Origin: Solirubrobacterales bacterium
GTDB taxonomy: Bacteria > Actinomycetota > Thermoleophilia > Solirubrobacterales > JACPNS01
Assembly (NCBI GenBank): GCA_016185345.1
Contig: JACPNS010000003.1
Coordinates: 248,001-312,000 of the forward strand
DNA length: 64,000 nt
Direction: 5' to 3'
Position numbers and translations under genes: made by a program. Of the stretch, positions 45,110 through 64,000 are shown one piece after another. How positions within the stretch are numbered: position 1 is the first letter of the stretch; each line of letters begins with the position of its first letter. The notes beneath the pieces are model-generated. The model was not told the origin of the DNA. It searched no databases and saw only the letters and a program-made list of their open reading frames with translations.

Positions 45110-46093
45110 ATGCCCGAAGCCGTACCAACATTGAGCGTCGTCATCTGCGCCTACTCGGACGAGCGCCGCGAGCAACTCGACCAAGCGATTGCCTCGCTCG
45201 AACAGCAAACTCATCCCGTCGATCAGATCGTCGTCGTGATAGACCACAACGAGTCGTTGCTGGCTGATGTCCGAGCCCGCCACGCCCAGCACACCGTCGT
45301 CCCCAACCGCCACAAGCGCGGCCTCTCGGGCGCGCGCAACACTGGCATCGAAGAATCCAGGCATGAGGTCATCGCCTTCCTCGACGACGATGCCCGAGCC
45401 GCTTCCACCTGGGCCGAGCTCCTCCTCCCGCACTACGCCGACCCCACGGTGATCGGCGCGGGCGGGCGGATCGATCCAGACTGGGCCAACGGGCGGCCCG
45501 CGTGGTTCCCGTTGGAATTCGACTGGGTCGTCGGCTGCACGTATCTGGGCATGCCGACCGAGACTGCCGATGTGCGCAACATGATCGGCGCCAACATGTC
45601 GCTGCGCAGCACGGTCCTGGAACGGGTTGGCGATTTCAGCTCCGACGTTGGTCGCACCGGCAAACTCCCGGTCGGCTGTGAGGAAACCGAGTTGTGTATC
45701 CGTGCCCTCGATGCTACGAACGGCCGCATCGTCTACGACCCGTCCGCCGCCGTCGATCACCTCGTGACCCCTGAGCGCGGCACGTGGGAGTACTTTCGCA
45801 CGCGTTGTTATATGGAGGGCATCTCGAAGGCGCAGGTGGTCAAGATGGCTGGGGCCCAGAGCGGACTCTCAAGCGAGCGCACCTATACGGCGAAGGTCTT
45901 GCCGCTCGGATTCCTCAGGGGTCTGGCGCAGGGTCTGAGGGGCGAGACCGCCGGCCCGCGCCGCGCCGCTGCGATTTTCTGGGGGCTGGCGGCCACCACG
46001 ACTGGTTACATGCGCAGCAAGTTGTTTGGATTGCCGAAGTCCGTGCGCACGCAGACCGACGCCGCGGTGCACGAGCCAGACCCGGAAACCTGA
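45110..46093 (+). CDS. GT2-family glycosyltransferase
   Basis: A 327-residue cytoplasmic GT-A enzyme using a nucleotide sugar. It shows the N-terminal SVVICAYSDERREQLDQAI, the GLSGARNTGIEES loop, the metal-binding AFLDDDARA and a later ETEL/acceptor region (VGCEETELCIRALD). The C-terminal 70 residues contain a helical, amphipathic segment likely to touch the membrane (GLAATTTGYMRSKLFG). It overlaps the flippase gene by one base (TGATG), which suggests that the glycan it extends is then flipped. Sugar specificity unknown. Confidence 0.9.
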   Translation: MPEAVPTLSVVICAYSDERREQLDQAIASLEQQTHPVDQIVVVIDHNESLLADVRARHAQHTVVPNRHKRGLSGARNTGIEESRHEVIAFLDDDARAASTWAELLLPHYADPTVIGAGGRIDPDWANGRPAWFPLEFDWVVGCTYLGMPTETADVRNMIGANMSLRSTVLERVGDFSSDVGRTGKLPVGCEETELCIRALDATNGRIVYDPSAAVDHLVTPERGTWEYFRTRCYMEGISKAQVVKMAGAQSGLSSERTYTAKVLPLGFLRGLAQGLRGETAGPRRAAAIFWGLAATTTGYMRSKLFGLPKSVRTQTDAAVHEPDPET

Positions 46094-47465: not shown

Positions 47466-49700
47466 CTAGCCGCCGGTGGCGCCGGTGCCGCCGGTGGCGC
47501 CGGCTGCGGCATCGCTTGATTCCGAGTTCACCGTACGGAATATCTCGACATCCCCCTGCCTGTTCCAGAGCTTCCACCGTGGGTTCTTGAGCATCCCGTC
47601 GCGAAGCGCCTTCGGGGCGCCGATCGGCATAACTCCCTCGGTCACGGTGTATCGCTCCATCTCCGGACTGAAAATCACGAAGCCGTTGGGCGAGAGCGCC
47701 TCGATCCAGTTGGCCAGCTCGTCCACCATCGCCGGCGTGTACGCGCGATCACGAATCTTCGGATTGACGTAGATGCCTTCGTAGGGGCTGAATACGGTCC
47801 AGTAGTTGAACGCAAGCTGCCCCGGAAAGTTTGGCGCCAGCGGCACGGCGACCGAACCGAAAGGCGCGTTGGCATAGAGGAACTTGCTGGCCTTGACCTC
47901 GTCAGGGGTCAGGTAGCGATCCTCTTCGAGTCCGTAATACGAGAGGAAGAACCCCACGCCCAAGGTAAGAAGCGTCAGCGCGACCACCACCATCCTCACG
48001 ATCCCCCGGCGAAATTCAAACAACGCCAGCGCGATCAGAATGCCCGAGAAGGGCGCGCTGAACATCACCACACGCAGGATCGCCTCGCCGCCGTAGCTCT
48101 GCCCGAGCAGCGTCAGGAACGGCGCGACGAAACTCAATAGCAAGAGCGGGATCCGAGTCGTGGGTCGCCGCCGCCCGAGGATGAGCACCGAAACCAGCGC
48201 TCCAATGGCGCCCGCAGCGGTCGTAAGCATGATCGCTTTGTTGGTGCCCTCACACGCGGGATTGCAGGTGACCTCGATCACGCGTTCGCGCCCGGCGTTG
48301 GCGAACGGGTCGAGCGAACCGAGCACACCGAAGTTCGAGTTCACCCAGGCGAACTGCGGCGCGAGGTAGGCGACCGTGACGAACGCGCAGGCAAGCACCA
48401 ACCAGCGCGGGCGCAGATATCCGAAGCCGGTGAGCAGAACCATCTGGATCAGCAGCACATACGGGGTGAGCTGGTGGACCATCGCGACTGCCAGCTGCAT
48501 CACGATCACCAGCGCGACGGTGATTTTCCACGACCATTCGGGATTCTCTCTGCGCTGCGGCCACTCCTGTTTCTTGCGCACGAGGAACCCCCCTGTCCGC
48601 GCCATCAGGTGGCCGAGCGCGTTCCCGCCGTTGTAGAGCTGGCTCCAGACGATCAACAACACCGCCAGCATCAACGTAAAGGCCATTGCCTGCGGCGAAA
48701 AGTACGCCTGGCCAATCCAGTCAATCAGCACAAAAGCGGAGGCCGCGACCGCTGCAAGGCCGATGCGCTTGTCCTCGGTCAGCGCGATCGCCGCCACAAG
48801 GGTCGCCTGGATTCCGACGAAGTAGAGCTCGGCCCAGCCGACGTAGTCGAGCGTGTCCTTGAAGCCGCCGAAGTTCGTGTAGATCCCGGCCGCGCCGAAG
48901 AAGCTCGGCCAGCGGTTGTAGATATCCACAAAACTGAACTTGCGGTGGTAGTGAAGGACCAGCTCTGTGACGCCGACGTGCTTGTAGTTCCACGGATAGT
49001 GGGGCACGTCGTAGATCACAATGGGGGTGATGTAGATCATCGCCACGAGCGCCGCTACGGACGAGGCCACAAGCCAGACGCGGGGCGACTTGCGGGTCGC
49101 GTAAAAAGAGATCGCGATGATCGTCAGAGCGAGCGCGAGCTTCCAGCTGGTCGGGAGCAGCGGCACGAGTCCGTAGTCCGAGATTTCGCGGTAGTCCACC
49201 GATGACGCGCCGACGATCCACAGATAGACCGCGAGCAGAAGAACGCCTATGACGATGATCGATGATCGATCGCTGAGCAGGTCTCCCCAGCCGATCCTGA
49301 CGCGTGAGCGCAAGCTGCGCCTGGTCACCTGCGGGCCGTGCGCGGGTGCGCGCAGGACGAGCAGGAGCGCTGCCACCGGAAACAGCGACCAGATCATTAT
49401 GGCCGGGTAGAACAGCCGCGTCAACAGCATTGCGTACGACATGAGGACGATCAGCGTCATGCTGAACGCCGCGGCGAGGCCGATGCGCGAGATCAGCCTG
49501 AGCCGCGGCAGGAAGCTCAGCACCGCGGCGCCGGGCACGAAGGTGTAGACGAGGATCGCGACGGCAGCTTGCGGCCATCCACTGAGATTGGTCGAGTACA
49601 GGATCAGCGCGAGAACCGTCAGCCCGGCCAGAAAGAACGAGACGTCGCGGCTGAGGTTGCCGCCGTCAGGAACCGGCCTGAAGATCGAGCGGAAATTCAT
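47466..49700 (-). CDS. large polytopic membrane protein, GT-C or polymerase-like
   Basis: A 744-residue protein with roughly 13-15 membrane helices over the first 600 residues, followed by a soluble, probably external domain (EEDRYLTPDEVKASKFLYAN, SVAVPLAPNFPGQLAFNYW). This layout, and an acidic DxD-free first loop, fits GT-C-like transferases or Wzy-like polymerases/ligases, but no motif settles it. The C-terminus is low complexity (AAAGATGGTGATGG). Its ATG overlaps the deacetylase stop by four bases, so they form one operon. In this locus a polymerase or ligase is otherwise missing, making that role attractive. Confidence 0.7.
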   Translation of the reverse strand: MNFRSIFRPVPDGGNLSRDVSFFLAGLTVLALILYSTNLSGWPQAAVAILVYTFVPGAAVLSFLPRLRLISRIGLAAAFSMTLIVLMSYAMLLTRLFYPAIMIWSLFPVAALLLVLRAPAHGPQVTRRSLRSRVRIGWGDLLSDRSSIIVIGVLLLAVYLWIVGASSVDYREISDYGLVPLLPTSWKLALALTIIAISFYATRKSPRVWLVASSVAALVAMIYITPIVIYDVPHYPWNYKHVGVTELVLHYHRKFSFVDIYNRWPSFFGAAGIYTNFGGFKDTLDYVGWAELYFVGIQATLVAAIALTEDKRIGLAAVAASAFVLIDWIGQAYFSPQAMAFTLMLAVLLIVWSQLYNGGNALGHLMARTGGFLVRKKQEWPQRRENPEWSWKITVALVIVMQLAVAMVHQLTPYVLLIQMVLLTGFGYLRPRWLVLACAFVTVAYLAPQFAWVNSNFGVLGSLDPFANAGRERVIEVTCNPACEGTNKAIMLTTAAGAIGALVSVLILGRRRPTTRIPLLLLSFVAPFLTLLGQSYGGEAILRVVMFSAPFSGILIALALFEFRRGIVRMVVVALTLLTLGVGFFLSYYGLEEDRYLTPDEVKASKFLYANAPFGSVAVPLAPNFPGQLAFNYWTVFSPYEGIYVNPKIRDRAYTPAMVDELANWIEALSPNGFVIFSPEMERYTVTEGVMPIGAPKALRDGMLKNPRWKLWNRQGDVEIFRTVNSESSDAAAGATGGTGATGG

Positions 49701-50482
49701 CTGTCGAAGCGACGCCTCAGGCGCCGCAGATTCCGAAAGCTCCGTGTGCGCAGGCGCTCTACCCTCCAGGCGCGCGGCGCTCCCGTACCGTCCAGGATGT
49801 CGGCGACTTCATCGACATCAGATCCAGAGGTGATCGTCCAGCGCGCGACTGCGAAGGGGTCGTCGCCGGCATGTGAAATGGCGTTCTTCACTGCGGCCGC
49901 GCCGACATATCCGGTGGCACGCGCGGCGGCGATCACACGCTTGTCATAGTTGCCGTGCGGATAGGCGCAGGTGGTCACGCCGGCACCGAGGATCTCTTCG
50001 AGCGCCGCTTTGCTACCGGCGAGCTCATCTTCGATCTCGCCCTTGCTCAGTTCATCCAGTCTCGGATGCGACTTGCTGTGCGCGGCGATCTCGATTCCCG
50101 GCGCCGCCGCAAGCGCTCGCAGTTCATCGGCGTCGACAAATCCATCCCGCCCGACAAACCCGCTCGTCACGAAGATCGTTGCTGGCACGCCGTGGGCCGC
50201 CAGCGTCTCTGCAGCTTGCAAATTGTCGCGCCAGCCATCGTCAAAGGTCACACAGACGCAGTTCTCCAGGGCGTGCTGCTCACCTGCGGTCAAGCGCCGC
50301 GCAAGCTCTGCGAAACCGATCGCTTCGCGGCCGCTCCGAGCGACCAGAGCGATCTGGTCGTCGAATGCGGCCGTGCGTAAGCTGAAATCGGCGATTTCGG
50401 GCGCGGGAGCGTCGCTCACCGAATGGTAAAGCAATACAGGGATCAGGTCCTTGCGCGCAGCTGTCTGTTCCTCCGACGCCAA
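49697..50482 (-). CDS. polysaccharide deacetylase (NodB homology, CE4)
   Basis: A 261-residue CE4-type enzyme. The catalytic base motif VTFDDGWRDN, the metal-binding HSKSHPRL and later CAYPHGNYDK motif are in order, over a barrel beginning LIPVLLYHSVSD. It would remove N- or O-acetyl groups from a glycan. No signal peptide is visible, so either it acts in the cytoplasm or is exported otherwise. It overlaps the following membrane protein gene by four bases. The C-terminus is very basic (RTRSFRNLRRLRRRFDR). Confidence 0.9.
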   Translation of the reverse strand: MASEEQTAARKDLIPVLLYHSVSDAPAPEIADFSLRTAAFDDQIALVARSGREAIGFAELARRLTAGEQHALENCVCVTFDDGWRDNLQAAETLAAHGVPATIFVTSGFVGRDGFVDADELRALAAAPGIEIAAHSKSHPRLDELSKGEIEDELAGSKAALEEILGAGVTTCAYPHGNYDKRVIAAARATGYVGAAAVKNAISHAGDDPFAVARWTITSGSDVDEVADILDGTGAPRAWRVERLRTRSFRNLRRLRRRFDR

Positions 50483-50570: not shown

Positions 50571-51467
50571 CTAGGCGACTTGACGCGCCGCGGCCGGGGT
50601 GGCCTCGGCGGTCACGCTTGCTGGGCGCCGCGGACGAAGACGCTCGCTGATGATCACGCGGAGAATGCGCAGTCCGTCGCGCACGGCGTTGAGGTTGCTC
50701 GAGCCGTGGATGCGGTCGTACTCCATGCTGGGCACTTCGGCGGTCCTCAGGCCAGTGGTGTGGGCACGGATGTTCATCATGGTCTCGACCTCGAAGCCGT
50801 CACAGTCGAGTGCGAGGTGCGGCAGCGTCCAACGCCAGAAGGCGGCGTAGCCGTAGCAGAGGTCGGTGTATTTGGTGCCGAAGAGCATGTTCACGGCAAC
50901 GCGCAGGCTGCTGTTGCCAGCGCTGCGGATGTACGTGATGTCGGTCGATCCGCCCTCGGGCATGTAGCGCGAGCCCTTGACGAAGTCGGCGCCGTTGACC
51001 AGGGCATCCACGTAGCGGGGGATCTCATTGGCGTCCATCGAGCCGTCGGCGTCGATCATCACGATTATGTCGCCCGTGCAGGCATCGAAGCCGCAGGTGA
51101 GAGCGTTGCCCTTGCCGTTGCCGTCCTGGTCGATCACGCGGACGTTGTCACGCAGCGAGAGCGCCACTTCGGCCGTGCCGTCGGTCGATGCGCCGTCAAC
51201 GACCACGATCTCGAAGACGTCATGCGGGATGTTCTCAAAAACAATTGGGAGGTTCAGAGCCTCGTTGCGAGCAGGCACGACAACGCTGACTCGCGGCCAG
51301 CTGAAGCGTGATTCAAATTCCTGCGGGTGTCGCGTGCGGGCACCGTCGTGCTTGCCGTCGAGCACGCGCCTGCGAATGTCTGCGATTTCGGGGTTGCGCG
51401 CGAGCGCAGCCGCATCAGTGCTTTCACTGAGCCCAATTTCATGGGTGGGAGTTTCAGTGATGTCCAT
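50571..51467 (-). CDS. GT2-family glycosyltransferase, polyprenyl-phosphate sugar synthase type
   Basis: A 298-residue GT-A enzyme resembling dolichol/undecaprenyl-phosphate mannose synthases. Motifs: RVSVVVPARNEALNLP, VVVDGASTDGTAEVA, IVMIDADGSMDANEI with the DAD metal site, KGSRYMPEGGSTD and the acceptor-loop region SMEYDRIHGSSNLN. It would load a sugar onto polyprenyl phosphate. There is no C-terminal membrane helix pair. The ATG at 51467 is chosen at the start of the conserved part of the frame; an upstream extension of 34 residues is basic and poorly supported. Confidence 0.88.
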   Translation of the reverse strand: MDITETPTHEIGLSESTDAAALARNPEIADIRRRVLDGKHDGARTRHPQEFESRFSWPRVSVVVPARNEALNLPIVFENIPHDVFEIVVVDGASTDGTAEVALSLRDNVRVIDQDGNGKGNALTCGFDACTGDIIVMIDADGSMDANEIPRYVDALVNGADFVKGSRYMPEGGSTDITYIRSAGNSSLRVAVNMLFGTKYTDLCYGYAAFWRWTLPHLALDCDGFEVETMMNIRAHTTGLRTAEVPSMEYDRIHGSSNLNAVRDGLRILRVIISERLRPRRPASVTAEATPAAARQVA

Positions 51468-51838
51468 TTGCCGTAAAATCCTTTTCGTCGCTTGGGGTGG
51501 TTGAGGTCGTTTTTTGTTTCTGAAATGGTTGATCACCGCACACGCCTTGACAACTGGCACAAACGACAATCGGCGCTCTTCCAGCTACCTGGTACTGGGG
51601 GATTTCGGGAAGTCATTCCCCGAAAATCATTCAGCACAGGCGACCTTCAACGAGCCGAGACTGCTTATTTTTTCGCTTCTCACCGATCTCCGAGTGATGA
51701 AAAGCTCCAATCAGGCCTACCGAGTCATTCGTATCGGCCGATCAGTTGATACAAGAGTAACGCGAAACGACGAATCGCGCAAGGGCTGACCACCTACTTT
51801 GTCCTTTTAATTACCCGCGGGTTTACGCTCTGGTAGCA
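51468..51838. other. 371-base intergenic region between divergent GT2 and flippase genes
   Basis: No convincing gene. Codon use in the open frames is unlike the neighbours and the region is visibly less GC-rich. It contains an inverted repeat TTTCGGG/CCCGAAA (51603-51609 and 51619-51625) and a CCCGCGGG palindrome near 51815. As the shared upstream region of two divergent glycan genes it is the likely control region of this part of the locus. Confidence 0.5.
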
Positions 51839-53209
51839 GTGGACGGAATGATGCGAGCAGCTCTGATCAACAAAACCCGCGCTTTTCTGGACGAACCACT
51901 AAACCGCACGGCGGTCTCGTTAATGGCCGCCACAGTGATAACCGCTGCACTTGGGGTACTTTTCTGGGCCGTCGCCACGCGACTGTTTCCGGCCCACGAG
52001 GTTGGCCGAAACGGAGCGTTGATCACCGCGATGATGGCGATCGCCGTCACTTTCGACCTCTCGGTGAACAATATCGTTCTGCGATTTTTTCCGCAGATAA
52101 ACGTGCATCTTGGACGGCGGGTGTGGCAGGCGTACCTGTTGGGCGGTAGTGCGGCCGCGATTGGCGGCGCGCTGTTTGTCATTTTCGTACCGTTGGCATC
52201 TGGTCAATTTGACTTCTTGGTCGAGGAAACGGCAGTTGCGATCGGGTTTCCCCTGGCGGCGGCTGGCTGGGCGATCTTTGTATTGCAGGGATCGGTACTC
52301 ACGGCGCTGGGCAAGGCGGCGTGGTTACCGGTGACAAACGGCGCGTTCGCGATCGCCAAAATCGCGGCGATCGGCGGGCTCGTCTTTGGAACGCTGGAGT
52401 ATGGGATCTTCGTGGGGTGGGTTGCGCCGCTGGTGCTCGTGATTCCGGTGGTCAACTGGTTCATATTCTCCCGCGTCGTGCCGGCGGCGGAGGTGAGCCA
52501 GAAGGATGCGCCAGGCGTGATTGAGGTAGTCGGAAAGCGCAGGTTGGTCGCTTTCGTCAGTCAGGACATCGTTTCAACCGCCGCCGGCGAGATCGCCACT
52601 TCCGCGATGCCCCTGATTGTTGTTGCGATGTCGGGAGACATTGAGAGTGCCTACTTCATTGTCCCCTTCGTGCTGATTGAAGCCTTTGACATGCTGTTCT
52701 TCTCTGTGGCCGTTTCGGTGGTGACCGAGGGCGCGCGCGACCAGTCGCGCATCCCGCAGATGATGAAGACGGCATGGCGGAGGCTGCTCACCTTCACTGC
52801 GCCCATCGCCTTGCTCATCGCCATCGCCGCACCGCTACTGCTGATCCCCAATGGTTCTGAGTACATGGACAACGCTTCAACACCGCTGCGGTTTCTCGCA
52901 CTCGCCAGCATCTTCCGCGCGATCGTGATGCTCTACACAGCGACGCTGCGCCTGCAGAGCCGCGGCAGGGCGTTGTTTGTGGTGCAGATATTCAACGCCG
53001 CCGTGATCATCACGGCCGTGATCCTCCTGACCGAGCATTCCGGAGCCAACGGCGCGGCGCTCGGCTGGCTGATCGGACTGGCGATCACGGGCACCGCGTG
53101 CCTCCGGCCGCTACTGAAGTTCGTCCGCAATCCGGTGATCGACCCGAACGCCAAGTCAATCGACCTCGCGGCCGAGTACGAAAAGATCACCAAGCGCGGC
53201 GCGCACTAA
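51839..53209 (+). CDS. polysaccharide flippase (MOP/Wzx-like), paralogue
   Basis: A 456-residue protein with about 12 membrane helices, closely patterned on the flippase at 46093: same length, the same start (ALGVLFWAVATRLFPAHEVG), a matching mid-protein VSQDIVSTAAGEIATSAMPL and similar C-terminal LLKFVRNP. Two flippases in one locus suggest two glycans or two lipid-linked intermediates. GTG start at 51839 followed closely by ATGs at 51848 and 51851; the true start is uncertain. It converges with the double GT2 gene. Confidence 0.9.
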   Translation: MDGMMRAALINKTRAFLDEPLNRTAVSLMAATVITAALGVLFWAVATRLFPAHEVGRNGALITAMMAIAVTFDLSVNNIVLRFFPQINVHLGRRVWQAYLLGGSAAAIGGALFVIFVPLASGQFDFLVEETAVAIGFPLAAAGWAIFVLQGSVLTALGKAAWLPVTNGAFAIAKIAAIGGLVFGTLEYGIFVGWVAPLVLVIPVVNWFIFSRVVPAAEVSQKDAPGVIEVVGKRRLVAFVSQDIVSTAAGEIATSAMPLIVVAMSGDIESAYFIVPFVLIEAFDMLFFSVAVSVVTEGARDQSRIPQMMKTAWRRLLTFTAPIALLIAIAAPLLLIPNGSEYMDNASTPLRFLALASIFRAIVMLYTATLRLQSRGRALFVVQIFNAAVIITAVILLTEHSGANGAALGWLIGLAITGTACLRPLLKFVRNPVIDPNAKSIDLAAEYEKITKRGAH

Positions 53210-53231: not shown

Positions 53232-55766
53232 TTAGTCGCGGGTCCGGGCTGCGGGCGCGCGGCCGCGGATCTGCCAGCGGCTCTTGATGTAGAGCCAAGG
53301 GCCGCGGAGCAGGCCGTCGCGCTGAATTTTGCGCAGCTCGCCGTGACCGGTCTCGAAGCTGTAGCTGTTGTCGCCGGCGAGGCGGCGCTGCAGCATGTGG
53401 GCGAGTTTGGCGATGATTGTCAGGCTGTGATGCGGGTCCAAGGCAGTCTTGAAGCCATACGCCATCGCGCCGGATCCATAGCCGAACATCTGCGCGCGCA
53501 GCGCCGGCTCGTCCGAGCGGTGGTGGTGCCAGACCAGCGCTCGCGGCTCATACGAAACCTGCCAATCGTTGGTCGTCAACATCCGCAAGAAGTAGTCGAG
53601 ATCCTCGCCTCCGCGAGTAGGCATCCCCGCGCCGAGCGCCTCGTCAAACGGTCCGATCTCGCTAACCGCTGCAGCGCTCATCGCAAAGTTGGCGCCTGTC
53701 CCGAGCATGCCTGAGGCGTACGGATACATCACGTGGTCCGCGCGGTTTTCCCCTAGGTCATACAGCCGCGCCGCAAAGTTGTCCGACCACTGCACCTGAT
53801 CGTCAAAATACTGTTGGAACTCGTTCTCCAAAGCCGTGCTGACCACGATGCCAGTGACGAGTCCGACCTTCGAGCCGTTGGCGAAACCCTCAAGCAGCCC
53901 GTTGATCCAGCCCGCATCGACTTCGACGTCGTCGTCCGTGAAGGCGATGATCTCGCCGTCGGCCTCCACGAGTCCACGGTTGCGTGCACGCCCCAGGCCG
54001 CCAATCGGCTCCAAGAAGTAGTGCACGCGTGGGTCGGCGCGTCGCTCCACGAGCGTGCGGGTTCCGTCATCGGACGGAGCATTGTCGATCACAATCAACT
54101 CGAAGTTCGGATAGTCAATGGCCAGGACGCTGTCCATCGCGCGCCCGAACTGCTCGGGGTGGTCGCGCGTGCAGATGATCACGCTGACCAAAGGCGTTGC
54201 GGCTGGGGCGGGGTGCAAGCCGGCCGCCTCGACTATCCCAGCGGACGTCAACATCTGACTGCCGAGCCCAAGCCGCTTCAGTTCGTCGCCGATCGCGTTG
54301 CCGAGCGAAGTGCCGACCGCAGCAGCTATCGCAGCCGGCCTCGCGCGACCCTCCGTCAAGGGTACGTCCGCGAACCCGATCGGAGTCCCGTCAAGCCGGA
54401 CCAGCGCGTGCGCCCGCCCGAACCGCGAGCCATCGGCCAGAGGCGGCGAATCAATCACCGCGAGTTTCTGCGAAAGCTCGATCTCGCACACCCAGGCCGG
54501 GGTGAAGGATTCGTCGTTCTGCGGCACCGGTGCAGCGGAGGAAACCCCGTCGTTCTCGCGGCGGCTGCGCAGATAAGCGAGCGGGCCGGAGACCATGCCA
54601 GAGAGCTCGCGCAGCGTGTAACTGAGCGGAAATTCCTTGCCCTTGCGCTGGTTCTTGGCCGAACCGGGGGAAAGCGCGATCATCAGACCGGCTGGGATCG
54701 CGCGCATCAGGCGGCGGCGGTGATTGCCGAAGAAGAGCTGCTTTGCGGTGACCGCTGTCGTGCCGACGCCGTAGTTGTAAACCATCGAGCGCAACTGCGC
54801 TGGCGTGTCAGGGTGCTCGTGGAGCACGGCAGATGCGGGCTCGTAGACCAGTTCATAGCCCTCGAGCATCAGGCGGATGAAGAGATCCGTGTCCTCTCCG
54901 CCGCGTGCTGCAGTGCCGGTGCCGAGTGTCTCGTCAAATCCGCCGAGCTCGTCGAACGCCTTCTTCGTGATCGCGATGTTCGCTCCGCTTCCAAACTGGC
55001 CGGCCGCAAACGGGAAGGTGCGGTCGTCCTCGTTCTCATCCAACCTGAAGCGCGTGCGCTCAAAGCCCTTGGAGAATCCGGCGAAGCGCTCTATCCGTGC
55101 CTGGCTCTCGGTCTCGAGCTTGAGCGGGAGGATCAGTCCGGTCACACAGCTGGCAGCGGGATAGTCGAAGAAGGCCGATGCAGTCGCGGATAGCATGCCG
55201 TGCATCGCGACGACGTCGTCGTCGGTGAACAGAAGGATTTCGCCGGTCGCCTCGGCCGCGCCGCGGTTTCGGGCCGCAGAGAGACCGGCCTTGGCCTGAT
55301 CGACGAGCTTCACGCGCGGGTCGCTCGCGGATGCGCTGCTGGGATCCAGAACGACTGGCCCGTTGGCCGGGCGATTGTTGACGACGATGACCTCGGCGTT
55401 CTCATAACCGCCCGCGAGGATCGAATCGATCGCACGTGCGACGCGGCGGCCCCCGTCGGTCACTCCGACTACGACTGAGATTCGAGGTTGATCGGCGATC
55501 GGCGGCGCGAACGTTGGCTCCGGCTCGACGCAGTTCGACTCCAACTGTTCGACGATCGACTCGGCGCTCACGATGCCTTTTGAGTCAACCGGCAGAGCGA
55601 AGGTGCCGCAGACGCGCCCGTCGTGCGTCGCGACAACGAAGACGCCCGTGTACGCGCGGCCGTCCTCGCTTTTTCCGGGCGTGACGTCCTCGGTCGGTGG
55701 CGAGAGCTTGTCGAGCATCATCACCGCAATCGGCGCGTCGAGCAGGTGAGCGGTGGTGGTCGTCAA
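53232..55766 (-). CDS. double GT2-family glycosyltransferase with repeated N-terminal module
   Basis: An 844-residue protein made of two similar halves. Each half has a small beta module (36-75 GRAYTGVFVVATHDGRVCG; 449-488 GRAHALVRLDGTPIGFADVP) followed by a GT-A domain. GT2-A spans about 95-340 with FTDDDV (181-185), GT2-B about 525-770 with FTDDDV (610-614); both have AxARNRG, GSGANxAx/GTGANFAM and RGGEDxD motifs. All metal sites look intact, so the enzyme may add two sugars in turn. Each half ends in a short basic, probably membrane-touching segment. Paired GT domains occur in chondroitin or galactan synthases, but no specific family is claimed. Confidence 0.9.
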   Translation of the reverse strand: MTTTTAHLLDAPIAVMMLDKLSPPTEDVTPGKSEDGRAYTGVFVVATHDGRVCGTFALPVDSKGIVSAESIVEQLESNCVEPEPTFAPPIADQPRISVVVGVTDGGRRVARAIDSILAGGYENAEVIVVNNRPANGPVVLDPSSASASDPRVKLVDQAKAGLSAARNRGAAEATGEILLFTDDDVVAMHGMLSATASAFFDYPAASCVTGLILPLKLETESQARIERFAGFSKGFERTRFRLDENEDDRTFPFAAGQFGSGANIAITKKAFDELGGFDETLGTGTAARGGEDTDLFIRLMLEGYELVYEPASAVLHEHPDTPAQLRSMVYNYGVGTTAVTAKQLFFGNHRRRLMRAIPAGLMIALSPGSAKNQRKGKEFPLSYTLRELSGMVSGPLAYLRSRRENDGVSSAAPVPQNDESFTPAWVCEIELSQKLAVIDSPPLADGSRFGRAHALVRLDGTPIGFADVPLTEGRARPAAIAAAVGTSLGNAIGDELKRLGLGSQMLTSAGIVEAAGLHPAPAATPLVSVIICTRDHPEQFGRAMDSVLAIDYPNFELIVIDNAPSDDGTRTLVERRADPRVHYFLEPIGGLGRARNRGLVEADGEIIAFTDDDVEVDAGWINGLLEGFANGSKVGLVTGIVVSTALENEFQQYFDDQVQWSDNFAARLYDLGENRADHVMYPYASGMLGTGANFAMSAAAVSEIGPFDEALGAGMPTRGGEDLDYFLRMLTTNDWQVSYEPRALVWHHHRSDEPALRAQMFGYGSGAMAYGFKTALDPHHSLTIIAKLAHMLQRRLAGDNSYSFETGHGELRKIQRDGLLRGPWLYIKSRWQIRGRAPAARTRD

Positions 55767-55901
55767 TGAGGATTTCAGTGTGGGGAGCGCCGAGTGAGTC
55801 GGCGCGATCGCTTCCGAGCGTATTCGAGGTTGCGGAAGCGCGCAAGTACCGCAAAGCAGTTCGCACGAGGTTGATTGCGTCTTGAACTAGTTTTAGGTGG
55901 G

Positions 55902-57083
55902 ATGGCCGAGGAGCCGCAACAAGTACGCGAGCTCACTGTGCTCGTGGTCGAGCAGGGTGAGGGATTGTGGGGCGCGCAGCGTTATCTGCTGCGACTTGCG
56001 CCGCTGCTCGCGGTGCTCGGGATTACGCAGATCCTCGCCGCGCCCGAGGACAGCGCGACGGGCGAGGCGTGGGAGGAGTTGGGTCTGCCCCGCGAGACGC
56101 TGACGGCTCCGCGCGCGCGCGGCGTGCGCGATAAATCCGGCCGGCTTGCGCCGGTGCTGGCAGCCCGCGAGGTATGGCAGATTTTGGCCACCGCGGTTCG
56201 CACCGCGCGCCTGGCCCGCCGCGTCGACGCAGACGTGATCCACGCCAACAGTCACTGGTCCCACCTTGAGTGCGCGCTCGCCGGCAAACTCGCAGGCGTG
56301 CCGGTCGAGCTGCATCTGCATGAAGAGAGTGAGCCGGATCTGTTGGGCAAGGCGCGCGGATTGGCGGTGAAGATGTCGGCAGCCTCGATTGCGGTGAGCA
56401 ACGACGTGCGCGATTCCTTACCCGCGAGCGCGCGGTCGTCGGTCACGGTGATCGCAAACGGGGTGGATCCGGCAGAGATCGAACCGGGCGCTGCCGATCC
56501 GCTGGTGCGGGCGCAGATGACGGACGATCCTTCGGCGCCGCTGGTGCTGTCAGCATCGCGTCTTGATCCCCGCAAGGGCGTGCAGTTTGTGATTGAGGCG
56601 GTGGCCGGGCTGAACGGGGAACTGTCTGGCACGCGGTTGGCGATCGCCGGCTCTGGCAGCCTCGATCCGGCCTTCGCAGCGCAGCTCGAGAAGCAGGCCG
56701 AGCGAGCGGCACCGGGGCGGGTTCGATTCTTGGGCCATCGCAGCGACATCGGAGACTTGTTTCGCGCCGCGGACGTGATGGCCATGGCGAGCAGCCTCGA
56801 GGGGATGCCGCTTGGCGTACTTGAGGCGCAGTCGGCCGGTTTGCCGGTAGTGGCTTGGCCCGCGGCGGGGATCGCCGAGATAATTGATCACGGGGTGAAT
56901 GGACTTATTGCGGATGAGGGCAGCGTGGAAGATCTGCGCGCGAAGATCGCGGCGGTGCTGGGGGATGATGAGCTACACGACCGGATCGCTGCCGCCGGCC
57001 GCTCAAATGTGATCGCCAATCACTCCTTGTCCAAACAAGCCGCCGAACAAGCCGTTCTGCTCCGCGCCATCGTCCCCGCCTAG
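55902..57083 (+). CDS. GT4-family glycosyltransferase
   Basis: A 393-residue GT-B enzyme with retaining GT4 features: N-terminal domain with EQGEGLWGAQRYLLRL, donor-binding C-terminal domain starting VIANGVDP and LSASRLDPRKGVQFVIEAVA, and the E-x7-E-like region SSLEGMPLGVLEAQSAGLPV. It would add a sugar from a nucleotide donor to the growing glycan. The ATG at 55902 is preferred to a TTG nine codons upstream. The 135-base gap back to the divergent double GT2 gene contains no gene. Confidence 0.9.
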   Translation: MAEEPQQVRELTVLVVEQGEGLWGAQRYLLRLAPLLAVLGITQILAAPEDSATGEAWEELGLPRETLTAPRARGVRDKSGRLAPVLAAREVWQILATAVRTARLARRVDADVIHANSHWSHLECALAGKLAGVPVELHLHEESEPDLLGKARGLAVKMSAASIAVSNDVRDSLPASARSSVTVIANGVDPAEIEPGAADPLVRAQMTDDPSAPLVLSASRLDPRKGVQFVIEAVAGLNGELSGTRLAIAGSGSLDPAFAAQLEKQAERAAPGRVRFLGHRSDIGDLFRAADVMAMASSLEGMPLGVLEAQSAGLPVVAWPAAGIAEIIDHGVNGLIADEGSVEDLRAKIAAVLGDDELHDRIAAAGRSNVIANHSLSKQAAEQAVLLRAIVPA

Positions 57084-58640: not shown

Positions 58641-58757
58641 ATGAATCGAGTCACTCCTGCCGACGGAACCGACCTACGCGATGCATCAGCGGCAGTCGGC
58701 GAAATGGCAATAGCCGAGGCTGTGATCGAATCGATCAGTAAGAACTACGAGCGCTGA
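58641..58757 (+). CDS. small ORF of 38 residues, uncertain
   Basis: Starts MNRVTPADGTDLRDASAAVG and ends IAEAVIESISKNYER. The tail is reminiscent of the end of Gfo/Idh/MocA oxidoreductases or other sugar enzymes, where a final helix with an AEA(A/V)xES pattern is common, so it could be a remnant rather than a working gene. A weak AAGAG precedes the ATG. It overlaps the convergent kinase gene by 13 bases. Low confidence. Confidence 0.3.
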   Translation: MNRVTPADGTDLRDASAAVGEMAIAEAVIESISKNYER

Positions 58758-60343
58758 GCAGTAGCGCCGGCCTGCATCGGAATGCCTTCGGGCTCATACC
58801 CATAGCCGTACCCGTAGCCATATCCATAGCCCTTCTCAGCCCCTCCGCCGCCGACCACGACCACACCGAGGGCGCGGGCCTGAGAGGCGGACAGCAGCCT
58901 ACGGACCTCCTTGGCCATCCCCGAGCGCAGCACGCCGCGACGGCCGATCACAACGATCCCGTCAACGCGCTTGGCCAGCGTCATCGGGTCGCCGACGCGC
59001 AGCATCGGCGAGGTATCGATCAATACGAGGTCAAAGCTTTCCTTCACGGTGTCAATGATCGAGGCCAACGCTTGGGTGCTCACAAACTCGCCCGGGTCGG
59101 GCGGGATCGCTCCGCAGGGGAGCAGCCAGAGCCCGCCCTCGGGGTTGCTGCCGCTGGTTGCACCTGTGGTGTCTCCGAGGCGCAGGCGGATCAGGGCCTG
59201 CTGCAAGGTGGCGCTGCCGACGGCGATGTTTGTGATTCCGGGTCGGGGGAGCAGGTCGAACGTGCGCTCGAGTGAGGGACGCCGCAGGTCGAGGTCGATG
59301 AGGCAGACGTTTTTGCCCGATCGGGCGCAGGCCACGGCGAGGTTCGCAACGGTCGTGGACTTGCCCTCATTCTCGACCGCGCTGGTGAACAGCAGCACGC
59401 GCGAGTCCGCGCCGAGCGATGCGAACTCGAGGTTGCTGCGCAGCAGGCGATATGCCTCGGTGTCGGGCGAGTTGGGGTCTGAGAGCATCAGCGGGAGCGT
59501 GGTGTCGCGGCGCTTCTTCTCGAGCGGGACGCGCACGAGCAGGGGGGAGCCGACGGCGTCTGCGATGTCTTCTGCGGTGCGCAGTCGGGTGTCGAGGGCA
59601 TCGACGGCGAACGCGACTCCGATGCCAAGCATTATCCCGAGCAGCAATCCGAGCACGGTGTTTCGCACTGGGGTCGGCTTGACCTGTTCGGCCTGGATCT
59701 CGGTGCGCACTATGAAGGAGTTGGACGTCTGCAGCGCCTGAAGCGTGCGCAGTTGCTCGCGTTTGTCGATCAGGGTCTCGCGCAGCGTCGCAGCGTCGGG
59801 GTCGGTCGCGCTGCCGGCCCGCAGCTGCCTTGAGACCTCAGAAAGCGCGCGGGCGATCGAGGCGGTGTCAATCTGGGTCCGAAAAATCGTGTACTGCTCG
59901 GCGTACTCGTTGACGAGCTGCTTGGAGCGGAGTTGGTCCTCGTCGGTGATCTTGAAGACGAGGATGTCGCTGTTCTGGGAGCTTGAGATCTCGGTCTGCT
60001 CAAGCAGCTGGGTCGGCGTGATGTCGGTGATCTTCAGAGCATTCAGCGTGTTGCGCGCGACGATTGGAGTGGCGGCCAGCTCGGCCTGAGTCTGGGCGAC
60101 CCGGTCGGCATCGTTTGCCTGGATCGACTGATCCTGGGTGTTCGTGAGGCTATTGCCGATGTTCTTCTGGCTGAGCAGAACGTCTGCCTGGCCCTGATAG
60201 GCAGGCGCTTGGAACATCGAGAACGCGAGAGCCGCGCCGGGTACGAGAAACGCACAGAGGATTACCAGGCCGCGGCGACGACGGACCACTGCGAGGGCAT
60301 CACGCAGCGAGGTTCCGCTCTGTTGTTGATCGTTTGGATTCAA
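58745..60343 (-). CDS. chain-length determinant/BY-type tyrosine autokinase
   Basis: Regulates polysaccharide polymerisation. In 532 residues from a TTG at 60343: membrane helix 1 (25-42), a Wzz-type external domain, helix 2 (228-247), and a BY-kinase domain with Walker A (SAVENEGKST, 321-330), Walker A' (CLIDLDLRRPS, 347-357) and Walker B (LVLIDTSP, 439-446). The C-terminal Tyr cluster is a strict repeat, six Tyr at 506-516 (GYGYGYGYGYGY), the autophosphorylation tail. No ATG gives the right length, so TTG is chosen; upstream frame is unlike Wzz. A divergent PHP-family phosphatase lies at 60451. Confidence 0.88.
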   Translation of the reverse strand: MNPNDQQQSGTSLRDALAVVRRRRGLVILCAFLVPGAALAFSMFQAPAYQGQADVLLSQKNIGNSLTNTQDQSIQANDADRVAQTQAELAATPIVARNTLNALKITDITPTQLLEQTEISSSQNSDILVFKITDEDQLRSKQLVNEYAEQYTIFRTQIDTASIARALSEVSRQLRAGSATDPDAATLRETLIDKREQLRTLQALQTSNSFIVRTEIQAEQVKPTPVRNTVLGLLLGIMLGIGVAFAVDALDTRLRTAEDIADAVGSPLLVRVPLEKKRRDTTLPLMLSDPNSPDTEAYRLLRSNLEFASLGADSRVLLFTSAVENEGKSTTVANLAVACARSGKNVCLIDLDLRRPSLERTFDLLPRPGITNIAVGSATLQQALIRLRLGDTTGATSGSNPEGGLWLLPCGAIPPDPGEFVSTQALASIIDTVKESFDLVLIDTSPMLRVGDPMTLAKRVDGIVVIGRRGVLRSGMAKEVRRLLSASQARALGVVVVGGGGAEKGYGYGYGYGYGYEPEGIPMQAGATAQRS

Positions 60344-60450
60344 GGGTCTAAAACTAGTCCCGCCGGGAGCGGCTGGCCGCTTTCCCCAAGTATTGTCGTT
60401 TGTCGCCCTGCATTGACTGCGAGACGAGCCCTTGCACCGCGAATTACAGC

Positions 60451-61227
60451 GTGATTGATCTTCATATCCATCTTCTGCCCGGGATCGATGACGGTCCGGC
60501 CGACGTCGCGGGCACCGTCGAACTCGCCCGCGCATGTGTCGCCGACGGGGTGCAGGCGGTCGCCGCAACGCCGCACGTGAGCGCGAAATACCAGACGACT
60601 CCCGCGCGGATGCGGCAGGGCGTGGAGGAAGCGCGCATTGCGATCAAGGCGGCTGGCGTGCCATTGAAGGTCTACGCCGGGGCAGAGGTTGCGATTGATC
60701 AGATGGCGCGGCTGAGCAATGAGGACCTGCGCGGCCTCACCCTTGGCCCGACTGAAGGATTCATCCTGCTCGAGACTCCGTATGCGGCCTGGCCGATGGA
60801 GCTCGAGACTCAGGTCGGAAGGCTCGCGATGCTTGGCATCCGCGGAATCCTCGCCCACCCCGAGCGCAGCGCGGGTGTTCAGGGACCTGGTGGGATCGAG
60901 AAGCTCGAGCGAGCCGTCAGCCGCGGTCTTTACACCCAGGTTACGGCAGGTTCGCTCGTCGGACGATTCGGTCGCACCGCCAGGAACACCGCCAACGAGC
61001 TGCTCCAGCGTGAACTGGTCCACGTGATTTCGAGCGACTCGCACAACGTCGATCGTCGACCGCCGCGAATGGCCGAGGCAGCAGCGGATGTTGGTGATCC
61101 GGAGCTTGCGAAATGGCTCACGACCGACGCTCCGCTCGCGATCGTGCGTGGAGAACGACTGCCGCCGAGGCCGACGCCCCGCGATCGCCCGAGCGGCGGC
61201 CTGTTTGGCCGCGGTCGGCGCGGTTGA
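60451..61227 (+). CDS. PHP-family protein-tyrosine phosphatase (CpsB/YwqE-like)
   Basis: A 258-residue metal-dependent phosphatase that would dephosphorylate the tyrosine kinase encoded next to it. The metal ligands lie in IDLHIHLLPGIDDGP, ATPHVSAKYQTT, LAHPERS and SSDSHNVDRRPP. It starts at GTG 60451, because family similarity begins at its second residue. The kinase gene is divergent, with 107 bases between the starts. Its stop abuts that of the convergent glycoside hydrolase gene. Confidence 0.9.
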   Translation: MIDLHIHLLPGIDDGPADVAGTVELARACVADGVQAVAATPHVSAKYQTTPARMRQGVEEARIAIKAAGVPLKVYAGAEVAIDQMARLSNEDLRGLTLGPTEGFILLETPYAAWPMELETQVGRLAMLGIRGILAHPERSAGVQGPGGIEKLERAVSRGLYTQVTAGSLVGRFGRTARNTANELLQRELVHVISSDSHNVDRRPPRMAEAAADVGDPELAKWLTTDAPLAIVRGERLPPRPTPRDRPSGGLFGRGRRG

Positions 61228-62685
61228 CTACTTGAAGTACTCGCGCGAGCCGAGCGGGGGGCTGCGTTCGCCGTCCTGTTCGGCCACGTACTGTCCGGCA
61301 CGCCTGCTGTCGACCGTCAGGTGCCGCTTGAAGACTCCGTTGGAAGCCGCTTTTATCGTGGCGACGCGCCTGTACGCGCCGTCGCGCAACACCTTGATCG
61401 TCACGTCCTTGGTGCTGCCGGCCGGTGCCTTGCCCCATACGAGCAGCCCGCGTCCCTGCTGACGAACGAAGAAGGGAAAGCGCAGTACGTAATAGGTCGG
61501 CTTGGCTCGTCCGGCCGAGTCGAAAAGTCCACCGCCTCTGATCATCGCTTCGGAGTTGTCGGACAGTGCGAGCCAGGTCACCTGCGACACACCGGCGCGC
61601 CAGAACATGTAGAGGGCGATCGCAGTACGACGCGCAGCCACGGTTGGAGGATCACCGATCGAGCTGTTCGCCGGCGTCGTGAACCACGCGAACTCAGTCA
61701 CCCAGAGCCGTTTGCTCCCGGGGCTGATGCTCTTTTCGTTCTGGGCAGCCTGGAGTATCTGCGCAAGATCCTCGACATCGGCGACGAACATGTTTCCGGC
61801 GATTCGCGCCCGTTGGGTCGGTCTTGCATCCAACGAATACGGATGAAGACCGAGCACGTCGAATCTGGCCCGCTCGGTGCAGCTCGGGTCCCTCTCGAAC
61901 CAGCCGTTGGCCGGCGTCACGCACAGGAGCTGCTCGGCGAACTTTTTGGGAAAAGCTGCGGGCTGGGATGACTTGACCGGCGCAAGCCCGGCCGTCACGA
62001 TCGTCGCGCCAGGTTGCACAGCCTTCACGGAGTCGCGCATCGAATTGAGCAGGCCGCGATAGAGCTCTGCGGATGTCGGCGCAAGGAACAGCGGAAGGTT
62101 TGGCTCGTTCCACGCCTGCCAGATCGAGACTCTGGGGAGGTTGCCAGCAGTGGTCGCGTCGGAGTACCCGCCCGAGTAGCGGACCGCCGCGGCGCGCGCG
62201 AAATCGCCGAAGGCCGCGGCGCTCGGCTTCCAGGCGCCGCTGCCGGCTTTGGCGCTATCCGGCGCCATCCCATCTTGCGCCCAGCGCGGTGCTTTGAAGA
62301 GCATCAGGTAAGGCGCGAATCCTGCGTCGACCGCCCGACGCACCTGGGCGTCGGTACCGGCCCAGTTGTAGTTCGGATCGGCCGGGTTGCGGGCGTCGAA
62401 GTCGGACGGCTTCGTGGCGCCCGACGGCGCGATCGCATTCCAGGCGGCCGCAATCCGGACGTAGCTGGCGCGCAACGTCGTCGCTCGCGCCAGCGCGGTT
62501 GCTGCCGATGATCCGTTCGCCAACCCTGAGTCATCGATCCCAGTACTGAAGCTCGGCAGCGCCGACCGCGTCTGCTTCATCTTCCCGGTCGCGGCAGATC
62601 CGGTGAAGCCGACGCAGAGCCCAGCGATCAATGCGGTCATGACGAGCGCGGCGGCAACGCCTGCGCTGCGACCCCGGCCGGACAT
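61228..62685 (-). CDS. secreted glycoside hydrolase-like protein (clan GH-A type)
   Basis: A 485-residue exported protein. Signal/anchor helix 10-28 (AAALVMTALIAGLCVGFTGS) is followed by a TIM barrel with the acid/base motif WQAWNEPNLP (Glu194) and nucleophile motif LWVTEFAWFT (Glu331). Both glutamates are present, so hydrolytic or transglycosylating activity is expected; substrate unknown, perhaps the glycan of this locus. A C-terminal beta domain (about 400-485) is basic. The ATG at 62685 lies five bases after the sugar transferase stop, so the two are co-transcribed. Confidence 0.85.
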   Translation of the reverse strand: MSGRGRSAGVAAALVMTALIAGLCVGFTGSAATGKMKQTRSALPSFSTGIDDSGLANGSSAATALARATTLRASYVRIAAAWNAIAPSGATKPSDFDARNPADPNYNWAGTDAQVRRAVDAGFAPYLMLFKAPRWAQDGMAPDSAKAGSGAWKPSAAAFGDFARAAAVRYSGGYSDATTAGNLPRVSIWQAWNEPNLPLFLAPTSAELYRGLLNSMRDSVKAVQPGATIVTAGLAPVKSSQPAAFPKKFAEQLLCVTPANGWFERDPSCTERARFDVLGLHPYSLDARPTQRARIAGNMFVADVEDLAQILQAAQNEKSISPGSKRLWVTEFAWFTTPANSSIGDPPTVAARRTAIALYMFWRAGVSQVTWLALSDNSEAMIRGGGLFDSAGRAKPTYYVLRFPFFVRQQGRGLLVWGKAPAGSTKDVTIKVLRDGAYRRVATIKAASNGVFKRHLTVDSRRAGQYVAEQDGERSPPLGSREYFK

Positions 62686-62690
62686 GGCGT

Positions 62691-64000
62691 CTAGACGCCG
62701 CGGCGCGCGAGGACGTGGCGCACGGTGCGGAGCATGATTTTCGCATCCGACCACCACGACCAGTTGGCCACGTAGAGGTAGTCCGTGCGCATCATTTCAT
62801 CCAGCGGCATGCTGACCGGGCCGTGAAGCTGCCAGGCGCCTGTGATGCCGGGTGTGATGCTGCTGCGACGGCGATACCAACCAGTCACCGCGACGTCTTC
62901 GCGTGGAACCAGCGGTCGCGGCCCCACCAGCGACATGTCGCCGCGCAGAACATTGAAGAGCTGCGGGAGTTCATCGGTCGATGTGGCGCGCAGGAGCTTT
63001 CCGACGCGCGTGATGCGCGGATCGTCCTCGATCTTGAACAGGCCATCGGTTTCGTTGAGGTGCGCGAGCTCGGACTTCTCACTGTCTGCGCCCTCGCGCA
63101 TCGTGCGGAACTTGAAGATCGCAAAGTCCTCGCCAAGTCGCCCGATTCGAATCTGGCGGAAGAAGACGGGTCCGCGGGAGTCGAGCGTGATCGCGATTGC
63201 CGCCAGCACCATGACCGGTGAGGCGAGCAGCAGCAGTAGCGAGGCGCCGACGACGTCGGTTGCGCGCTTGAGCACCGTCGAAGAGGCCGTCATGCGGTAG
63301 TCACGCACGCCCAGCAGTTGCTCTCCGCCGACGTCGTCGCTCTCGACGGCAAAGCCGATCGCGTCGAACAGTCGCGGCAGCAAGCTGATCTTCACGCCGA
63401 GGCTCTTGACGCCCCTCACGACTTCGCTGACTTCATCGGGGTTGCGGTTGCCCGGCACCACGACGATGCGGTCGATCTCGTAGAACGACAAGAGCACGGG
63501 GAGGTCATCGATCTCTCCGAGCACCTTGGCTTGACCGACCGTGAGGTCGGTCGTCGTGATTGGAACACGGCCGACGATTTCGGCCCGGATCTGAGGCGAG
63601 AGCACGATCTTGCGCGTCAGGTGGTCGCAGTCCACGCTGCTTCCGACCACGAGCAGGCGTTCGGTCGGCGAAACGAGGCGCGCCGCGAACCGCGCGATCA
63701 CGCGGCCGACGATCAAGAAGACGGTCATCACCGCGATCAAGAAGACAAGCTGCTTGGTCCCCAGGCCAGGGCTGCCGATCACCGCAAGGTCACGCGCAAA
63801 GAACGCGATCACCGTCGTCATCATCGCCAGCGTGAAGATCTTCGGAACTTCTTCGATCGTCGTGTGATTGAGCACGTGTGCGTCGCGGTCGTAGAGACCG
63901 GCGAGTTTTCCAATCGGCACGACGAACAGCACCGCGACAAACATCGCCCAGTAGACCTGGGAAGTGTGCGTGAACGTCGCTGTGGCGACGAGCGCCAGTA
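62691..64000 (-). CDS. polyprenyl glycosylphosphotransferase (exopolysaccharide initiation), 5' end beyond window
   Basis: Transfers a sugar-1-phosphate from a UDP-sugar to undecaprenyl phosphate, the first step of the glycan. The visible 436 residues contain membrane helices, a Rossmann-like domain (about 110-220, LLVVGSSVDCDHLTRKI), another helix, and the catalytic BacSugarTrans domain with FFRQIRIGRLGEDFAIFKFR, DELPQLFNVLRGDMSLVGPR and PGITGAWQ. The frame is open to the window edge, and an internal ATG at 63944 lies within the membrane region, so the true start is upstream. Belongs to the WbaP/CpsE-type family. Confidence 0.92.
   Translation of the reverse strand, partial: LALVATATFTHTSQVYWAMFVAVLFVVPIGKLAGLYDRDAHVLNHTTIEEVPKIFTLAMMTTVIAFFARDLAVIGSPGLGTKQLVFLIAVMTVFLIVGRVIARFAARLVSPTERLLVVGSSVDCDHLTRKIVLSPQIRAEIVGRVPITTTDLTVGQAKVLGEIDDLPVLLSFYEIDRIVVVPGNRNPDEVSEVVRGVKSLGVKISLLPRLFDAIGFAVESDDVGGEQLLGVRDYRMTASSTVLKRATDVVGASLLLLLASPVMVLAAIAITLDSRGPVFFRQIRIGRLGEDFAIFKFRTMREGADSEKSELAHLNETDGLFKIEDDPRITRVGKLLRATSTDELPQLFNVLRGDMSLVGPRPLVPREDVAVTGWYRRRSSITPGITGAWQLHGPVSMPLDEMMRTDYLYVANWSWWSDAKIMLRTVRHVLARRGV

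Follow-up and report, generated by a model that had tools for sequence, protein, structure and literature searches.

A tandem GT2 glycosyltransferase gene of a Solirubrobacterales bacterium, apparently formed by fusion of neighbouring paralogues with a repeated N-terminal module

We describe a tandem glycosyltransferase gene in a window of 64,000 nucleotides from a Solirubrobacterales bacterium (positions are those of the window). The gene is real, intact and conserved, and it encodes a protein of 844 residues made of two copies, here A and B, of a unit with the order small module, GT2 GT-A domain and basic tail. Both catalytic sites are intact, and the gene lies in a conserved cluster. The tandem apparently arose by fusion of neighbouring, anciently diverged paralogues, and we consider it rather likely that this fusion of GT2 neighbours yielded a bifunctional, non-processive transferase, which performs two consecutive single additions in a lipid-linked oligosaccharide pathway. 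Two-GT2 proteins are already known, and the newest element here is the module.

The gene forms a single uninterrupted frame on the minus strand, with a TTG start at 55766 and a TAA stop. The candidate starts of this gene and of its counterparts in two genomes of the same genus (G004 and G002) are found at similar distances upstream of the residues APIAV. The parts of the gene are the following:

53232..55766 (-): whole tandem GT2 gene, 844 aa (open frame, alignment of the halves)
55530..55742 (-): module A, residues 9-79 (leave-genus-out profile match, 28.1 bits)
54759..55481 (-): GT-A/GT2 core A, residues 96-336 (core profile; Pfam GT2 families)
55212..55229 (-): FTDDDV motif of A, residues 180-185
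54891..54905 (-): RGGED motif of A, residues 288-292
54558..54758 (-): basic tail A, residues 337-403, with the C-terminus GMVSGPLAYLRSRR (alignment, near-invariant G, P and Y columns)
54273..54497 (-): module B, residues 424-498, predicted as three strands and a long helix (profile, 73.6 bits; AlphaFold2)
53466..54188 (-): GT-A/GT2 core B, residues 527-767 (Pfam, core profile, AlphaFold2 pTM 0.91)
53925..53942 (-): FTDDDV motif of B, residues 609-614
53601..53615 (-): RGGED motif of B, residues 718-722
53235..53465 (-): three-helix basic tail B (AlphaFold2 secondary structure; alignment)

To compare the halves the protein was cut at residue 425. BLASTP aligned them with 112 of 330 columns identical (34%, E 5e-53), which bears out the two homologous units of identical part order proposed in the initial annotation and is not the very low identity that it had named as an objection. 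At the DNA level the likeness is patchy only, with a best piece of 40/53, which marks the two copies as old. Pfam family PF00535 matches the protein in two stretches, with a whole-protein score of 142 bits (2e-41; cut-off 23.3), and each half contains the FTDDDV and RGGEDxD motifs of a GT2 metal site and acidic motif (starting at 180 and 288 in A, and at 609 and 718 in B), as the initial annotation had read them.

In G004 the protein is fused likewise, while in G002 the frame reaches the contig end after module B and a second contig begins inside B, with overlapping sequence. The second G002 unit (L042:3-1148 (+)) contains a direct repeat of about 22 residues, with ERQFYSYGSGAIAYGFKHALQP present twice, and the A-B linker of this genome contains a hydrophobic stretch. 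An assembly artefact or a frameshift that joined two genes was considered and is unlikely, since A and B share one open frame also in G004 and in a further genome, G152.

The modules of A and B are only 14-15% identical in direct alignment, which by itself could not prove their kinship. We therefore note that a profile built with the window genus left out finds both copies in the window protein, module A at residues 9-79 (28.1 bits, i-E 9.7e-11) and module B at residues 416-520 (73.6 bits, i-E 6.4e-25), whereas an hmmsearch of the module profile against 2000 shuffles of the tandem protein gave zero matches at E up to 1000, with filters on. The module is thus a real repeated element of both halves, ahead of each GT2 domain, as had been suggested. 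Module B alone was predicted by AlphaFold2 with high confidence (66 rows, pLDDT 95.9, pTM 0.83), and in the model of unit B it comprises strands at 12-18, 39-46 and 49-57 and a helix at 65-86, all ahead of the GT-A domain.

The statement that the module is not a standard annotated domain also holds, as no curated Pfam family matches over the window modules. With the whole tandem protein at E<=0.01, Pfam returned GT2-type families only and nothing that covers the modules; the best scores of module B stay below the cut-offs (Gly-zipper_Omp, 20.1 bits vs 25; Gly-zipper_YMGG, 14.4 vs 28.9), and a scan of the 66 module rows at E<=0.1 gave seven families in total, each matching one row. Foldseek against the PDB found no match to the module at E<=0.001 (best E 0.41), the best VIA match had a Z of 2.8 (rmsd 4.1, 57 aligned), and the module profile against PDB sequences reached at best E 0.0083, over a short stretch of a MutT/nudix protein. 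Some of the weak Foldseek matches are to entries whose names point to PUA-like domains (TruB, YTH domains, 3iuw); as their E is 0.41 or worse, nothing was drawn from them.

Among the best 80 of 306 relatives, the module (E<=0.01) is present with 69 of the 97 GT2 cores of at least 200 bits, in proteins from Streptomyces, Mycolicibacterium, Rhodococcus, Chloroflexota, Cyanobacteriota and Pseudomonadota; the phyla with module and GT2 are Actinomycetota, Chloroflexota, Cyanobacteriota, KSB1 and Pseudomonadota. In a draw of 198 genomes from the phylum the module matched in 16, at 20 places, and when these loci were rescored 13 of the 20 shared their frame with a GT2 core. The seven others comprise two places on a single contig of G380, where the frames are short or broken, one place in G255 that did not reappear, and four weak matches scoring less than 22 bits; hence, as far as seen, a clear module goes with this GT2 type. 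Since the module is predicted to fold confidently, spans several phyla and gave no clear match in our Pfam and PDB searches, a description of it would help to annotate many GT2 proteins better. It is possible, although we regard it as doubtful, that the module represents a domain family not described before, characteristic of a large GT2 subfamily across phyla, and that it acts as an acceptor- or partner-docking element by which paralogous glycosyltransferases work as an assembly line, at first from adjacent genes and later, repeatedly, as fusions.

The AlphaFold2 runs covered unit B and the module alone; a full-length alignment (A2), which seemed to put A-like singles on half B, was excluded from folding. 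Unit B, with 38 aligned units, gave a model with pLDDT 90.2 and pTM 0.91, in which three helices lie C-terminal to the GT-A domain. The best PDB matches of this model are GT-A enzymes with Z 20-23, and in the VIA comparison WrtF came first (Z 23.2, rmsd 4.7, 235 aligned), so that unit B is modelled with a GT-A fold. These matches cover the GT-A domain and the tail (model residues 105-413), and not the module or the tandem arrangement.

The tandem gene is located between ClpB (42330) and a gene at 57158 which, from its translation and general knowledge, we take to be RadA, together with two other GT2 genes, a GT4 gene, a CE4-type deacetylase and polytopic membrane proteins:

45110..46093 (+): GT2a, AglG-like (NCBIfam 199.6 bits; cut-off 440)
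47466..49700 (-): large polytopic membrane protein (20 TM-like stretches; relatives adjoin the tandem gene)
49697..50482 (-): polysaccharide deacetylase, CE4-type (PF01522, 6e-25)
50571..51569 (-): GT2b, AglJ-like (NCBIfam 130.5 bits; cut-off 325)
51839..53209 (+): polytopic membrane protein, flippase-like by hydropathy and setting only (11 TM-like stretches)
55875..57083 (+): GT4 glycosyltransferase (Pfam; synteny)

The cluster is found between RadA and ClpB also in G004, and in G002 on two contigs with the same flanks; the G002 stretches gave no match to the GT4. The window differs in gene order from G004 and from G185, another genome of the order, in that GT2b and the deacetylase lie downstream of the tandem gene. 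In NCBIfam, GT2b and GT2a have their best scores with AglJ and AglG, lipid-linked enzymes of archaea; neither score comes near the cut-off, and this likeness gives a hint of a monophosphate lipid carrier.

Pfam assigned no family to the two membrane proteins at 51839..53209 and 47466..49700, and their identification as flippases was set aside for this reason. One cluster membrane protein, compared with PDB sequences, gave two chance-level matches (E 0.71 and 0.92), and PF01943 matches the genome in six places, a single one of them on this contig, outside the window and with a score under the cut-off. As the membrane proteins have no Pfam family, we infer the lipid-linked route from the surroundings. 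Beyond RadA there are a chain-length/tyrosine-autokinase gene (58745-60568) and a polyprenyl glycosylphosphotransferase, above cut-off (62691-63944), and a Wzy_C domain, also above cut-off, follows about 1.6 kb past the window end. The ABC-2 exporter family PF01061 has 10 places in the genome and none in the cluster, the sole one on the contig being about 68 kb before the window. Taken together, the setting leans to a lipid-linked, flippase-type pathway. The same region includes a 509-aa protein (61228-62757 (-)) with one N-terminal TM-like stretch and without a Pfam family, which appears secreted and, by eye only, glycosidase-like.

Matches at E<=1e-20 were obtained in 33 of 232 genomes of the order; in two others of the same genus, G001 and G003, neither the tandem gene nor GT2a has a match at this threshold. 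Among related genomes this gene neighbourhood persists with its genes separate, joined in part or joined in full. In G185, A and B are neighbouring separate genes in the order GT2b, deacetylase, A, B, membrane protein; the stop of A overlaps the start of a 136-codon ORF with hydrophobic stretches (L077:12853-13263 (-)), and B comes next. G004 has the G185 order, but with A and B fused and the GT4 gene between GT2b and the deacetylase. In G152 (L075:7348-10698 (-)) a PF01522 polysaccharide deacetylase domain, A, module and B share one frame of 1117 codons, with no module detected ahead of A. Other joints also occur: B is in one frame with a different, GT2a-like GT2 in G159 and G158, and A is in one frame of 1322 codons with stretches resembling the large membrane protein of the cluster in G155 (L078:6496-10461 (-)). 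A similarly long frame, with a glycosyltransferase and a non-glycosyltransferase part, was seen in G139 (L090), and in G078 (L097:8074-11352 (+)) a module and GT2 unit shares its frame with a GT4 glycosyltransferase. G248 has three neighbouring single-unit genes. Since these intermediate states survive, they make it possible to trace, and to test, how adjacent genes led to one bifunctional enzyme.

The mechanism that we infer, as regards the donors, the order of addition, the non-processivity, the lipid carrier and the role of module and tail, would be as follows. Each unit has the make-up of a complete transferase, with the three-strand-plus-helix module, the GT-A domain with its metal-binding DDD and catalytic ED, and the basic tail (helical in the B model). 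At the membrane A and B would act in turn, each taking a single sugar from a nucleotide-sugar and attaching it to a polyprenyl-linked oligosaccharide, and the fusion would hold both at the same acceptor and in a fixed ratio. Module and tail may contact the membrane or the acceptor, and the neighbouring deacetylase would modify an amino sugar of the product. Two single additions fit better than a polymerase with the deacetylase, the further glycosyltransferases, the polytopic membrane proteins and the separate genes of G185. Several points speak against this reading: the profile and fold matches in the PDB include true two-domain polymerases, B of G004 departs from ED, the membrane proteins of the cluster have no Pfam family, and the gene order of the window is not that of G004 and G185.

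The protein might instead be a polymerase of the KfoC or class II hyaluronan synthase type, with two sites that alternate on the growing end and produce a long chain alone, which we judge rather improbable. It is suggested by the best PDB match of the unit profile, the chondroitin synthase KfoC (2z86/2z87, 2.4e-25, two stretches), by the presence of KfoC and heparosan synthase among the fold matches of unit B, and by the two-GT2 polypeptide of Klebsiella O7, which takes part in polymerisation according to an excerpt of PMC11231755. However, the structural likeness resides in the GT-A domain and tail and not in the module or the tandem layout, and the cluster has no ABC-2 exporter. In addition, A and B are separate in G185 and B is joined to a different GT2 in other relatives, so across the order A and B are not bound to each other as an alternating pair.

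That only one half is catalytic, the other being an allosteric or scaffold domain, is less probable still. DDD is kept in all 51 units that we aligned, whereas ED is found in 34 of 51 (one truncated row was scored as a miss). L095, a row of the A clade, looks decayed past the DDD motif, and L101 is truncated. Among the four A-B fused proteins, ED is present in A in 4/4 and in B in 3/4, the exception being G004, where B reads GGGDDLD, i.e. DD instead of ED. The incomplete conservation of ED and the DD of G004 would agree with one inactive half; against this, the proteins of the window, G002 and G152 have DDD and ED in both halves, so that no site is inactive throughout the orthologues, which the initial annotation had raised as a ground for doubt. 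The terminal branches of the genus halves in our careful tree are also similar, 0.40-0.51 for A and 0.47-0.64 for B.

The two consecutive additions proposed above would be those of enzymes that diverged before they were joined. The careful tree comprised 51 units (cores >150 bits) cut from fetched loci and three outgroup GT2s. The A halves of the window, G004 and G002 fall in a 15-row clade (support 100/98) and the B halves in an 8-row clade (99/97), and each clade includes single-unit genes from another family of the order, so that the single-half homologues sought by the initial annotation do exist in the order. A tree constrained to unite the six genus halves is worse by 54 log units (p-AU 0.00108). 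A quick tree with wider sampling, of 80 units (cores >200 bits), included 22 hand-chosen loci from the best 80 of 306 relatives and omitted L105, L107, L164 and L182, which are records of genomes already in the set; here B lies in an 18-row actinobacterial clade (SH 99) and A in a 14-row clade (SH 99). The separate clades with single-unit genes and the AU rejection indicate that the paralogues predate the fused gene, and the tandem is therefore attributed to fusion. A recent duplication of one GT2 unit inside the gene in this lineage, which the initial annotation had assumed and which the shared order of parts and the 34% identity might suggest, can practically be dismissed, because A and B belong to separate supported clades with single-gene members, genus-half monophyly is rejected by the AU test under the model used, and the halves are apart again in the quick tree.

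Among the best 80 of 306 relatives, each frame has one strong core except in L164 and L181, and a different GT2 stands in front of the core in L140 and L170. Neighbouring single-unit genes were found, within the same set, in a Chloroflexi genome (L124) and an Actinomycetes MAG (L148). The unplaced genome UBA2219 (L181:5923-8694 (+)) has two units in one frame of 924 codons, and a KSB1 genome (L168:4665-9040 (+)) has three adjacent separate unit genes. In the quick tree the second half of L181 groups with the KSB1 gene L168_7361 (SH 99), and the first half with the other two KSB1 genes, at a fork without resolution (SH 94). L181 thus looks like a second, independent fusion in another lineage.

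Two glycosyltransferase domains on one chain are a known design, of which the tandem gene is a variant. A literature search on two-GT2 proteins, through titles and abstract openings of a limited collection, found neither such a fusion nor the module described. KfoC (K4CP; 2z86, 2z87) resembles the tandem protein in having two catalytic domains on one chain, but both units of the latter also contain an N-terminal module and a basic tail, and to our knowledge K4CP has no module of this type. KfoC-type polymerases belong to ABC-exported capsule systems, a context that is absent from this cluster (PF01061); the cluster has instead a deacetylase, other glycosyltransferases and polytopic membrane proteins, and one relative has the units separate. 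K4CP alternates two sugars, as stated in an excerpt of PMC13411425. The C-terminal region of Klebsiella pneumoniae O7 ORF6 contains two GT2 modules that were separated by DXD mutation (excerpt of PMC11231755). As described there, ORF6 and WbdA (dual GT module) are similar to the tandem protein in that two modules per polypeptide act successively, but they are set apart as parts of ABC-transporter-dependent O-polysaccharide systems with a coiled-coil ruler, and the excerpt makes no mention of a module of the tandem type. The mycofactocin glycosyltransferase MftF (TIGR03965) has the highest NCBIfam score of the 18 families listed for the protein (221.5 bits, two stretches), which is below the curated cut-off of 280 and hence outside the family; its best stretch (75-342) begins only at profile position 58 and does not extend over the module. 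The closest family to both halves, among the best 80 of 306 relatives, is that of the module and GT2 proteins of other bacteria.
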